34,554 nucleotides of DNA from Anaerolineales bacterium (GTDB taxonomy: Bacteria > Chloroflexota > Anaerolineae > CG2-30-64-16), in contig JADGQF010000012.1 of the NCBI GenBank assembly GCA_017882045.1, positions 1 through 34,554 of the forward strand. Reading direction: 5' to 3'. The notes beneath the pieces are model-generated. The model was not told the DNA's origin and did not search any database. It worked only from the letters and a program-made list of their open reading frames with translations. Numbering within the stretch: position 1 is the stretch's first letter; every line of letters starts with the position of its first letter. Both the position numbers and the translations under genes were made by a program. This document shows, piece after piece, positions 27,932-34,380 of this stretch.

Positions 27932-27938
27932 TTTGCTG

Positions 27939-29018
27939 ATGCTAGAAGATGAAGGGCTGCGTTTGCTGCAGGACCTGGTAGCCATCCCCTCGCTTTCCGG
28001 CCAGGAGGCCGCGGCCAGCGCTTTCCTGGTGGACTGGATGGCGGCGCATGGCTTCCGGGCCTTCGTCGATCCCGCGGGCAATGCCGTCGGTGTGTTGGAA
28101 GGCGGCCCGGGCGCGGCGGACGAGCCGGCCAGAGAAATCCTGCTGCTAGGGCACATCGACACTGTGCCGGGCCGCCTGCCGGTGATGGTCCGGGACGGCA
28201 AGCTCTACGGACGCGGCGCGGTGGACGCCAAGGGTCCGCTGGCGGCCTTTGCCACAGCAGCAGCCCAGGCGGGAGCGCAGCCAGGCTGGCGCATCGTCGT
28301 CGCCGGCGCGGTGGAAGAGGAGGCGGCCACATCCAGGGGCGCGCGCTACCTTGCGCCACAGCACCGTCCGGCCCTGGCGGTCATCGGCGAACCCAGCGGC
28401 TGGCAGCGGGTCACCGTGGGATACAAAGGGCGGCTGCTGGCCGACGCGACGGTGCGCCAGGCTATCTCTCATCGCAGCGGGCGCCTTCCGAGCGCCTGCG
28501 AGCTGGCAGTTTCTTTCTGGAACCGGGTAGAGGCCCACCTGGGCGAGTGGAATGCCGGGCGCGAGCGCGCCTGGGACCAGGTGTTGCCCGCGTTGTTCGG
28601 CTTTGCTTCAAGCGATGATGGTTTGGTCGAGGAAGCGCGCCTTAAGGTTGGCTTCCGTCTCCCGCCAGATATGGGGCCTGAGGAACTGAAACCCGTCCTG
28701 CAAGGCTTGGCCGGCAGTATTGCCCTGTCGTTTCGCGGCGAGGAATCGGCCTACCAGGCGGAGAAAGACAGCCCACTCGCCCGCGCCTTTCTGAGGGCGA
28801 TCCGCGAGCAGGGCGGCCGGCCCGGTTTCCTGCTGAAGACCGGCACGTCGGACATGAATGTGGTTGGACCGCTTTGGCGCTGCCCGATCCTTGCCTACGG
28901 ACCGGGCGACAGCAGCCTGGACCACACACCCGAGGAGCACATCGACCTGCAGGAGTGGGCTCAGGGTGTCGGTGTGCTGGCCTATGTTCTGCGCTCGCTC
29001 GGTGAAAGGGGCGGGTAA
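27939..29018 (+). CDS. lysK: LysW-lysine hydrolase (M20-like)
   Basis: [31 protein letters not shown]...[15 protein letters not shown]...[20 protein letters not shown]...[14 protein letters not shown]...[12 protein letters not shown]. Confidence 0.92.
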
Positions 29019-29077: not shown

Positions 29078-29106
29078 TTGACAGATGCAAAATACTATGT
29101 TAACAT
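29078..29106 (+). promoter_or_regulatory. Sigma70-like promoter of ilv-leu operon
   Basis: TTGACA (29078-29083), 17 bp, TAACAT (29101-29106). Confidence 0.72.
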
Positions 29107-29149
29107 CCCGAGCGGTAACGTAAGGCACGTAAGATGAGGATATGAACTG

Positions 29150-29236
29150 ATGCAGTTCTATGGCCTGGTAATCGTTCTTATTAGCGTGCTCCTAAGCCTG
29201 TCGCTTATGGAGCCACTACCTGTTGGGAGGACGTAG
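29150..29236 (+). CDS. Branched-chain amino acid leader peptide (attenuator)
   Basis: MQFYGLVIVLISVLLSLSLMEPLPVGRT*; dense Leu/Val/Ile codons 29165-29206; GAGG ~10 nt upstream; downstream terminator with competing antiterminator; precedes ilvB. Confidence 0.88.
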   Translation: MQFYGLVIVLISVLLSLSLMEPLPVGRT

Positions 29237-29271
29237 GCCAGACCGTAACCGCCGCCAAGCTGACGAGCCAG

Positions 29272-29302
29272 GGGCCTCCCAACAAGGGAGGCCCTTTTTC
29301 TT
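29272..29302 (+). terminator. ilv attenuator terminator 1
   Basis: GGGCCTCCC (29272-29280) AACAA GGGAGGCCC (29286-29294) TTTTTCTT. Confidence 0.92.
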
Positions 29303-29404: not shown

Positions 29405-31122
29405 ATGAGGCAAAGAAAGAGTGGGGCGCAGATCGTGTGGGAGAGCATGCTTCACGAAGGCGTCGACGTTGTCTTCGGCTTGCCCGGTGGCGCAACCCTG
29501 CCCATTTACGACGCGCTGGCCAAGTATCACTATCCGATCCGCCACGTCCTCGTGACCCATGAACAGGGCGCGGCTCACATGGCCGACGGTTACGCGCGCG
29601 CGAGTGGGCGGGTGGGGGTCTGCCTGGCCACTTCGGGTCCCGGCGCCACGAACCTGGTCACCGGACTGGCGACGGCTTTTATGGACTCTTCACCCGTGGT
29701 CGCCATCACCGGCCAGGTGTCGACCGCTTTGCTGGGGCGAGATGGCTTCCAGGAGGCGGACATGCAGGGGGTCAGCCTGCCGGTGACCAAGCACAACTAC
29801 TTGATCACCAAGATTCAGGACCTCCCCGATGCCCTCAAAGAAGCCTTCTACATCGCCCGCACCGGGCGACCCGGCCCGGTCGTCGTAGACATCGCCAAAG
29901 ATGTGCAGCAAGCTGAAATGGAGCTGGAATATCCCACCTCGGTGAACTTGCCCGGTTACGACCCTGCCCTGAGCGCGGCCGATCCTAAGGCCATCGCTCG
30001 TGCGGCCCGGCTCATCAACGATGCCGAACGGCCGGTGATCATCGCCGGCCAGGGGGTGCTGATCGCGAAGGCGACCGCAGAACTGCGCCAGCTTGTCGAA
30101 AAGGCCAACATCCCCGTCGCGACCAGCCTGTTGGGCATCGGCACCCTGCCTGCCACGCACCCACTTTCGATGGGTATGGGCGGGATGCACGGCGAGGCTT
30201 ACACCAACTATGCAATCCAGGAATGCGATATCCTGGTGGCCATCGGTTCCCGGTTGGACGACCGTTTGACGGGTGCTTTCAGCAGCTTCGCGCCGAAGGC
30301 GCGCATCATCCATATCGACCTCGATCCCGCGGAAGTGGGCAAGACGATGACCATCGACACACCGGTCATCGGGGACGCCTTGCTGACGCTGCGCGAACTC
30401 ATCCCCCTGGTCGAGCCCAAGAGGCACCCGGACTGGTTGGCCCAGATCGCCGAATGGCGCGGCGACACCGACCGGCGCGACGTGCTGGCGCGTGAGGCGG
30501 ACGAACTCGTCCCCCCTTTCATCATGCGCGAGCTGTGGTACCAGACCGACGAGGGCAACTGCATCGTGGTCACCGATGTCGGCCAACACCAGATGTGGGA
30601 GGCCCAGTATTTCCCGCACATCCATCCGCGCAGCCTGATCACCTCCGGCGGCCTGGGCACCATGGGCTTCGCTCTGCCGGCGGCCATCGGCGCGCAGATG
30701 AGCCGGCCCGACGAGGAAGTGTGGGTGGTGGCGGGCGACGGCGGTTTCCAGATGACCATGCCGGAGCTGTCCACCGTGGTTGCCGAGGAGCTGCCGATCA
30801 AGATCGCGATCATCAACAATGGCTACCTGGGGATGGTGCGCCAGTGGCAGGACATCTTCTATGAACAGCGCTACGCCGGCACGCCGCTCTTCAATCCCGA
30901 TTTCGTGAAGATCGCCGATGCCTACTGCATCCCGGCCGTAACCGTTTCTCACAAGGAGGATGTGGACGGTGCGATCCAGCAGGCGCGCGCTCACAAGGGA
31001 CCGTTCCTGATCAACTTCAAGGTCGATCCGTTCACCAATGTGTATCCGATGGTGGCGCCGGGCAGAAGCAATGCCGATATGATCCGCCGGCCGCTGCCGG
31101 ACATGCCCAACGCAGAAGAGGC

Positions 31123-31126
<4 letters not shown>
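29405..31126 (+). CDS. ilvB: Acetolactate synthase large subunit
   Basis: [32 protein letters not shown]...[47 protein letters not shown]...[19 protein letters not shown]. Confidence 0.96.
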
Positions 31127-32707
<1,581 letters not shown>

Positions 32708-32736
32708 GGGGATCGAGAGAAGGGGAGAAGCTTTCT

Positions 32737-34380
32737 ATGAGCCATCCTGACGATGCCGTACTGATCTTTGATACTACCTTGCGCGATGGGGAGCAGTCGC
32801 CGGGCGCGACCCTGAACGTCGACGAGAAGCTGGAGATCGCCCATCAACTGTCGCGCCTGGGTGTCGATATCTGCGAGGCGGGCTTCCCGATCGCATCGCC
32901 GGGCGATTTCGAGGCCGTACGGCGCATCGCCCAGGAAGTCGGCCCGCTGACGGAGGGGCGCAAATCCGGCCAGCCGATGGTCATCGCCGGGCTGGCGCGC
33001 GCGAACAAGCCGGACATCGCGCGCGCCTACGAGGCCGTCAAGGCGGCGCCCCGCCACCGCATCCACACTTTCCTCGCCACCAGCGATATTCATCTGCAGT
33101 TCAAGCTTAAGATCGACCGCGAGGAATGCATCCAGCGGGCGATCGAAGCGGTGACCCACGCCAGCGGCCTGTGCGATGACGTTGAGTTCTCGCCTGAGGA
33201 CGCCGGGCGCTCCGATGCGCAGTTCTTGACGGTGGTGCTTGGCGAGGTCATCAAGGCCGGCGCGACGACGCTGAACATTCCGGACACTGTCGGTTATACT
33301 ACCCCTGAGGAGTACGGTCGGCTGATCGAGTACCTCATCTCGCATACACCCGGCGCCGAGCGCGTCGTATGGTCGGTGCATTGCCACGACGACCTGGGAT
33401 TGGCAACGGCCAATACCCTGGCCGGCGTGCGTGCCGGTGCACGCCAGGTGGAGGTAACCGTCAACGGCATCGGCGAGCGGGCCGGTAACACCTCACTCGA
33501 AGAGGTGGTGATGGCCATCGCTACCCGGCCGCAGGTCTTTGGCTTGCACACCGACATCGATACAACGCAGCTCACACGTACCAGTCGTATGGTCAGTGCC
33601 TATACCGGCATGGTCGTGCAGCCGAACAAGGCAATTGTCGGCGCCAACGCGTTCGCCCACGAGGCCGGCATTCACCAGGACGGCATGCTCAAGAGCAGCC
33701 TGACCTATGAGATCATGCGTCCGGAGACTGTGGGTCTGTTGTCCTCCCGCCTGGTGCTTGGCAAACACTCGGGACGCCATGCGTTTCGCTCGCATCTCAA
33801 CGATCTGGGCTATGCCGACCTGTCGGACAAGGATGTTAACCTGGCCTTCGAGCGCTTCAAGCGTCTGTGTGACATGAAGAAGATCGTCACCGATGCGGAC
33901 ATCGAGGCCATCATCGCCGACGAGATCTACCAGCCGCGCGAAGTGTGGCGCTTGAATCACATCCAGGTTTCCTGCGGCGACCACAGCATTCCGACTGCCA
34001 CAGTCAACCTGATGGGGCCGGATGGTAAGGTGTACGAGGACGCGGCCCTGGGCTCCGGGCCGGTCGATGCCGTCTACAAGGCGATCAACCGCGTTGTTGG
34101 CGTCGTCAATACGCTGACCGAGTTCAGCATCAAGGCCGTCACCGAGGGGATCGACGCTGTGGGTGAGGTGACCATTCGCATTCAGCCGCACAACGGCGAT
34201 CGCGATGAGGTGGTCAACCCGCAGACCGGCCAATCGTTCGCCCGCACTTTCAGCGGCCACGGAGCTGATAACGATATCATCGTCGCCGCAGCACGTGCCT
34301 ACATGAGCGCGCTGAACAAGATGCTGACGGCACGCGAGGAAAAGGGTGCTAATGAGCGTCAAACCGCAAACGCTGTTTGA
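32737..34380 (+). CDS. leuA: 2-isopropylmalate synthase
   Basis: [59 protein letters not shown]...[46 protein letters not shown]. Confidence 0.95.

Follow-up and report, generated by a model that had tools for sequence, protein, structure and literature searches.

The ilvBNC-leuA operon in the DNA analysed here (a stretch of 34,554 nucleotides from an uncultured Chloroflexota bacterium, referred to as the window) is preceded by an element that, judging from sequence comparison, is very probably a ribosome-mediated transcription attenuator sensing charged Leu, Val and Ile tRNAs. An attenuator of this kind, with a Leu/Val/Ile leader peptide and an antiterminator that excludes the terminator, had been proposed in an initial annotation of the sequence, and this proposal is now supported by compensatory base changes and by class-wide conservation. 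The mechanism belongs to a known class; the RNA represents a lineage-wide family without a match in Rfam.

Leader anatomy and genomic context

The features of the leader and of the operon behind it are compiled in Table 1. Leader ORF, 10-bp complement and terminator were all found base for base as initially annotated, while a conserved hairpin inside the control codons, here called P1, had been missed. Leu, Val and Ile account for 13 of the 28 residues of the leader peptide in the window. Close to the end of its ORF, the strand TGTTGGGAGG (29221-29230) is the exact reverse complement of CCTCCCAACA (29275-29284) over 10 bp. When the leader tail was shuffled 20,000 times, 10 of the shuffles gave a Watson-Crick run of at least 10 against this terminator arm, as did 5 of 3,452 genuine 41-nt stretches taken from the window; for the 10-bp helix alone this corresponds to a chance of about 0.05-0.15% of comparable tails. 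The terminator reads GGGGCCTCCC-AACAA-GGGAGGCCCT followed by TTTTCTT, with 11 pairs predicted between 29270 and 29296. Shuffling of a 601-nt stretch gave chance expectations of 0.2 promoter-like and 0.3 terminator-like sites. As the terminator has a predicted stability of -23.0 kcal/mol compared to -15.4 kcal/mol for the antiterminator alone, the switch must be kinetic, which is usual in attenuators.

Table 1. Positions of the attenuator elements and of the operon genes in the window.
Feature	Position	Strand	Basis
Promoter TTGACA-17 nt-TAACAT	29078..29106	+	consensus scan, 10/12 matches
Shine-Dalgarno-like GAGGA of the leader ORF	29136..29140	+	sequence
Leader peptide ORF MQFYGLVIVLISVLLSLSLMEPLPVGRT*, ATG to TAG	29150..29236	+	sequence; homologous leaders
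Control codons, Leu/Val/Ile run (codons 6-19)	29165..29206	+	sequence; position profile, 43 leaders
Hairpin P1, GCTCCTAAGC-CTGTC-GCTTA(T)GGAGC, within the control codons; proposed RNA polymerase pause hairpin	29188..29213	+	covariation, stability vs synonymous versions, position
Antiterminator 5' strand TGTTGGGAGG	29221..29230	+	exact complement, pairing and covariation
Near-invariant U-G, predicted pause site (U = RNA 3' end, G next)	29224..29225	+	alignments; geometry (PMC12288461)
Intrinsic terminator, 11-bp stem and U tract	29270..29299	+	terminator prediction, covariation
Antiterminator 3' strand CCTCCCAACA (terminator 5' arm plus loop)	29275..29284	+	exact complement, covariation
Second terminator-like hairpin T2, dG -20.3, then TCTTAA	29338..29376	+	fold prediction; between attenuator and ilvB
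ilvB, acetolactate synthase large subunit (regulated gene)	29405..31126	+	TIGR00118
ilvN, acetolactate synthase small subunit	31123..31644	+	TIGR00119
ilvC, ketol-acid reductoisomerase	31703..32707	+	TIGR00465
leuA, 2-isopropylmalate synthase	32734..34380	+	TIGR00973

On its 5' side the attenuator is bordered by the end of a LysW-type lysine operon, with lysK at 27933-29018. The attenuator model does not account for the second hairpin T2, which transcription of ilvB must pass; T2-like hairpins occur in 14 of 32 leaders, with 1.4 expected from shuffles, and a search for an antiterminator partner of T2 returned none.

IlvB is 55-57% identical to its counterparts in genomes of the same family and 74-77% identical to those in members of two other families, and LeuA likewise shows 72-74% identity within the family versus 77-80% to the two other families. 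From these identities, the ilvB-leuA operon (29405-34380), and perhaps the attenuator with it, seems to have been replaced horizontally. The contig also encodes a homocitrate synthase sharing 75-80% identity with that of same-family genomes, and is therefore unlikely to be a binning contaminant.

Covarying helices and control codons

Upstream regions of ilvB were collected from 148 loci, 59 of which carry a Leu/Val/Ile-rich ORF followed by a terminator within 160 nt. ilvB genes lacking a leader immediately before them often have ilvD on their upstream side, and in that arrangement the element frequently stands ahead of ilvD. Removal of matches from other phyla and of one duplicate, together with the addition of Chloroflexota leaders with a weak U tract, resulted in 43 dereplicated Chloroflexota leaders; L025, the ORF of which continues beyond the antiterminator strand, was excluded from the pairing statistics. 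In an alignment-free comparison of the 43 leaders, pairing between each leader and its own terminator reached a mean of -18.5 kcal/mol, against -14.6 kcal/mol for swapped partners, a difference seen in none of 20,000 permutations.

Thirty-seven leaders were aligned with MAFFT (alignment A1), and a scan of A1 for any helix returned three strong ones, namely antiterminator, terminator and P1. Pairing amounts to 83.8% in the antiterminator (columns 48-59 : 119-130), with 46 double-sided changes versus 15.7 in shuffles, to 83.8% in the terminator, with 80 versus 29.7, and to 84.7% in P1, with 44 versus 16.2. For each of the three, the covariation score was reached by none of 500 shuffles and all slid registers scored lower. 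A covariance model, R1, was built from P1 and the terminator only and does not contain the antiterminator. When 35 further sequences, a few of them close relatives of the training sequences, were aligned with R1, the antiterminator was 84.9% paired and its covariation again exceeded all shuffles (0/500). Antiterminator and terminator are mutually exclusive, as the leader strand pairs with the terminator 5' arm, and the intrinsic terminator stands ahead of the first structural gene, both of which are hallmarks of ribosome-mediated attenuators.

A further hallmark is a short ORF rich in codons for the operon products, and the predicted leader ORF, the translation of which we infer from sequence, has this composition. 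Across the 43 leaders, the last 25 codons leading up to the antiterminator strand are 55% Leu, Ile and Val, with a maximum of 95% at individual positions, whereas Phe (2.5%), Ala (4%), Met (1.8%) and Trp (0.1%) are scarce in the same stretch. The Leu/Val/Ile fraction lies between 0.65 and 0.95 at codons -18 to -7, amounts to 0.56 at codon -6 and then falls to 0.16, 0.09 and 0.12 at codons -5 to -3, the drop being located where a stalled ribosome would reach the antiterminator strand. Counted from the first base of the A-site codon, a ribosome extends about 12-13 nt downstream, so codon -6 is approximately the last one at which a stalled ribosome would leave the strand free. Codons that are rare in ilvB are favoured in the leaders, with CTT representing 40% of Leu codons (4% in ilvB) and ATT 71% of Ile codons (23% in ilvB), a preference that holds outside P1 too.

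This composition also bears on whether the ORF might encode a functional small membrane peptide, with the terminator merely ending a small transcript. The leader peptide is indeed hydrophobic and its end K/R-E-P-x-P-V-G-R is conserved, but this end is precisely the stretch encoded by P1 and the antiterminator strand. L120 and L123 retain both the strand and the 11-nt spacing to P1 although their ORFs terminate ahead of the strand. A membrane peptide would explain neither the dominance of Leu, Val and Ile over Phe, Ala, Met and Trp, nor the preference for ilvB-rare codons, nor the covariation of the terminator arm with the leader, and we regard it as very improbable. Control of the terminator by a T-box or a metabolite riboswitch appears even less credible. 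T-boxes are known in Chloroflexi (PMC3766115), but no Rfam family reached its gathering score in the window, relaxing the cut-off to E up to 5 gave no credible one for the leader, the T-box model RF00230 matched neither window nor leader, and the transcript ahead of the terminator is largely occupied by the leader ORF. Attenuation by a translating ribosome is our preferred reading.

Hairpin P1 and a candidate RNA polymerase pause

P1 is more stable than synonymous versions encoding the same peptide (z of -2.96 in the window, mean z of -2.2, below -1 in 36 of 43 leaders) and is therefore a feature of the RNA. The hairpin does not overlap the antiterminator strand. Its base is located exactly 11 nt upstream of a near-invariant U in 71 of 72 sequences (37/37 in A1 and 34/35 among those aligned with R1), and a U-G is found at that position in 35/37 and 34/35 sequences, respectively. 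Neither an ORF that ends ahead of the strand (L120, L123) nor a 3-nt displacement of the pairing strand (L005, L006) alters the 11-nt spacing. In the his and trp leaders of E. coli the polymerase pauses at a U that is followed by G, and the pause hairpin doubles as the 1:2 hairpin of the switch. As in these leaders, where the hairpin lies 11-12 nt upstream of the paused U (PMC12288461), the Chloroflexota P1 lies 11 nt upstream of its U; on geometry alone it therefore qualifies as a stabilising hairpin of the kind known 11-12 nt upstream of paused 3' ends (PMC12288461). P1 may thus hold RNA polymerase until the ribosome melts it. Unlike the double-duty hairpin of E. coli his and trp, it would be an element dedicated to this task and placed within the control codons.

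It is possible, if somewhat doubtful, that the spacing is a by-product of peptide and antiterminator conservation and that P1 acts as a spacer, an insulator or a means of slowing the ribosome. Because the U-G forms part of the antiterminator strand, its conservation does not count as independent evidence, and pausing of the Chloroflexota polymerase is a prediction from geometry. A by-product would, however, not be expected to exceed synonymous alternatives in stability, to covary, or to keep 11 nt in all but one sequence, including the four with an early ORF end or a shifted strand, and this value falls into the range of known pause hairpins.

With P1 as a pause hairpin, attenuation would proceed as follows. 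RNA polymerase transcribing the leader would pause as P1 forms 11 nt behind it, giving a ribosome time to start on the leader ORF and to catch up. When charged tRNAs are scarce, a ribosome stalling in the Leu/Val/Ile run would halt just short of the antiterminator 5' strand, which could then pair with the 3' strand once this is transcribed, so that no terminator forms and ilvB is transcribed. With charged tRNAs plentiful, the ribosome would cover the 5' strand and reach the stop codon, the terminator would fold and transcription would end; the tRNA supply would in this way set how often termination occurs. A ribosome at the stop codon would cover the strand in the window, as initially annotated, but this holds for only about half of the homologues, its predicted footprint including at least half of the strand in 23 of 43 cases and none of it in 13. 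The stop codon ranges from 43 nt downstream of the strand start to just upstream of it and wanders to such an extent that the conserved distance is the one from strand to P1, not from strand to stop.

In a classical three-state attenuator, P1 and a longer upstream pairing would form an anti-antiterminator (1:2) sequestering 29221-29230 in the untranslated leader. The minimum-energy fold of the window pairs an upstream CGTTCTT with GGAGGACG around P1 (7 bp, in the window only), and in most sequences the 5' arm of P1 could pair with the strand over 4 bp. We nevertheless consider this arrangement unlikely, as the 4-bp pairing covaries little beyond column make-up (paired cells 103/500, pair types 153/500), its covariation score stands at 22/500 with a slid register scoring higher, and the predicted accessibility of the strand is about equal for the native sequence (0.30) and for synonymous upstream codons (0.32). 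By covariation and predicted accessibility, no conserved 1:2 hairpin sequestering the strand was found among the Chloroflexota leaders. We tentatively propose instead that this class-wide leader RNA splits the jobs of the 1:2 hairpin, with a dedicated pause hairpin embedded in the control codons at a constant distance of 11 nt from the pause site, and with no anti-antiterminator.

Distribution, regulon and relation to known leaders

Searches with R1 were evaluated at E up to 0.001 within the class and at E up to 1e-4 in a phylum-wide sample. R1 matched 205 of the 298 class genomes and 60 of the 301 genomes in the phylum-wide sample, where the strong matches fall mostly within the class and some outside. 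Among six non-class loci that were inspected, four (L216, L217, L220, L221) lie ahead of ilvB or ilvD; L219 is accompanied only by a distant ilvB-like gene, and at L218 no such gene was recognised. Only weak matches occur at ilvB loci of Acidobacteria, Myxococcota and others. At four of the Acidobacteria loci (L067, L113, L066, L057), different Val/Ile/Leu-rich ORFs are followed by a recurrent terminator-like hairpin that has GCCAGA..GCTGG in the loop region and no clear match to R1; these loci possibly constitute a separate ilvB leader family. The genome of the window contains one clear attenuator copy, and a second match (G000:C109, E 0.07) most likely reflects a chance resemblance to a gene-end terminator.

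At the loci inspected, the elements mostly precede ilvB or ilvD, but also leuC, ilvE and cimA. Attenuation of rplI in some members was considered and rejected, as a small conserved ORF intervenes. Two tandem attenuators stand before ilvB at L131/L210 (G003:C154) and in G013:C512, those of G003 being separated by a small WRYYHG ORF. Nine of the 10 family genomes encode a small uncharacterised protein ending in ..MHPEWHDPEWRYYHG (L190, L184, L189, L203, L208, L210), which gave no match in a Pfam search. Its gene adjoins ilvD, cimA or ilvB, and several copies immediately follow a second attenuator. At L185 (G015:C88:26500-29500) the gene behind the attenuator appears to join the N-terminal ~25 residues of ilvD to a rubrerythrin-like protein (PF02915), an apparent capture of an ilvD attenuator by another gene. 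Attenuators with related leaders also precede an uncharacterised ORF (MTDLIRFVPEDHRSP..) at L187 and L188 (G056:C242, G021:C241); this ORF has no Pfam match and is a possible new member of the branched-chain amino acid (BCAA) regulon.

Leader-peptide attenuation is textbook knowledge for Proteobacteria and Actinobacteria, and in trp, ilv and leu leaders the first hairpin excludes the antiterminator. Proteobacterial ilvL, leuL and ilvBL leaders likewise let a ribosome stalled on Leu/Val/Ile codons select antiterminator or terminator, and to this extent the ilvL/leuL logic assigned to the window initially is retained; the Chloroflexota leaders depart from it in having neither an Rfam match nor a conserved 1:2 helix by which the antiterminator strand would be sequestered. 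Rfam scans, run with gathering as well as loose thresholds, offered no credible family for the Chloroflexota leaders tested, its Leu, Thr, Trp, His and Phe leaders included, and the best leader family was Phe_leader with 21.5 bits against a threshold of 55.

The ilvBNC attenuator of Corynebacterium glutamicum (ilvB-II motif; PMC11857589, PMC10272879) shares with the Chloroflexota element a BCAA-rich leader ORF, the target operon and an antiterminator overlapping the terminator 5' arm. Its first hairpin has also been proposed to pause RNA polymerase, but overlaps and excludes the antiterminator (PMC11857589), whereas the Chloroflexota P1 is separate, with its base 11 nt upstream of the U-G. The ilvB-OMG and Leptospira ilvB motifs (41 and 7 representatives, respectively) are predicted attenuators in ilvB leaders with BCAA-rich upstream ORFs as well, in which Thr codons are abundant too (PMC10272879). 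Thr amounts to 2.7% in the codon profile of the Chloroflexota leaders, a distinction drawn from the motif descriptions and not from direct alignment. The Rfam scan gave no match named ilvB-OMG, the presence of that model in the library being uncertain. A pause-like hairpin within the control codons combined with the lack of a conserved anti-antiterminator is possibly an unusual layout among these systems.

A 2010 survey knew of no cases beyond Proteobacteria and Actinobacteria before its own in Firmicutes (PMC2965389), a 2013 survey described the amino-acid attenuators of Rfam as mainly gamma-proteobacterial and perhaps of that origin (PMC3766115), and upstream ORFs of ilvB have since been predicted in further groups (PMC10272879). 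Among the papers covered, a scope that leaves priority uncertain, our literature search yielded no report of ilv leader-peptide attenuation in Chloroflexi, and within this scope the initial description of such control as poorly documented for this lineage is supported.

About two thirds of the sampled genomes of a Chloroflexota class thus carry a BCAA attenuator without an Rfam match. R1 can annotate hundreds of such leaders, placing ilv, leu and unknown genes in one regulon. To our knowledge, the coupling of transcription and translation has hardly been studied in Chloroflexota, and the strict spacing between hairpin and U-G suggests that it takes place there. If the split layout proves true, an untranslated leader may default to antitermination and leave the operon on, the opposite of trp, ilv and leu attenuators.
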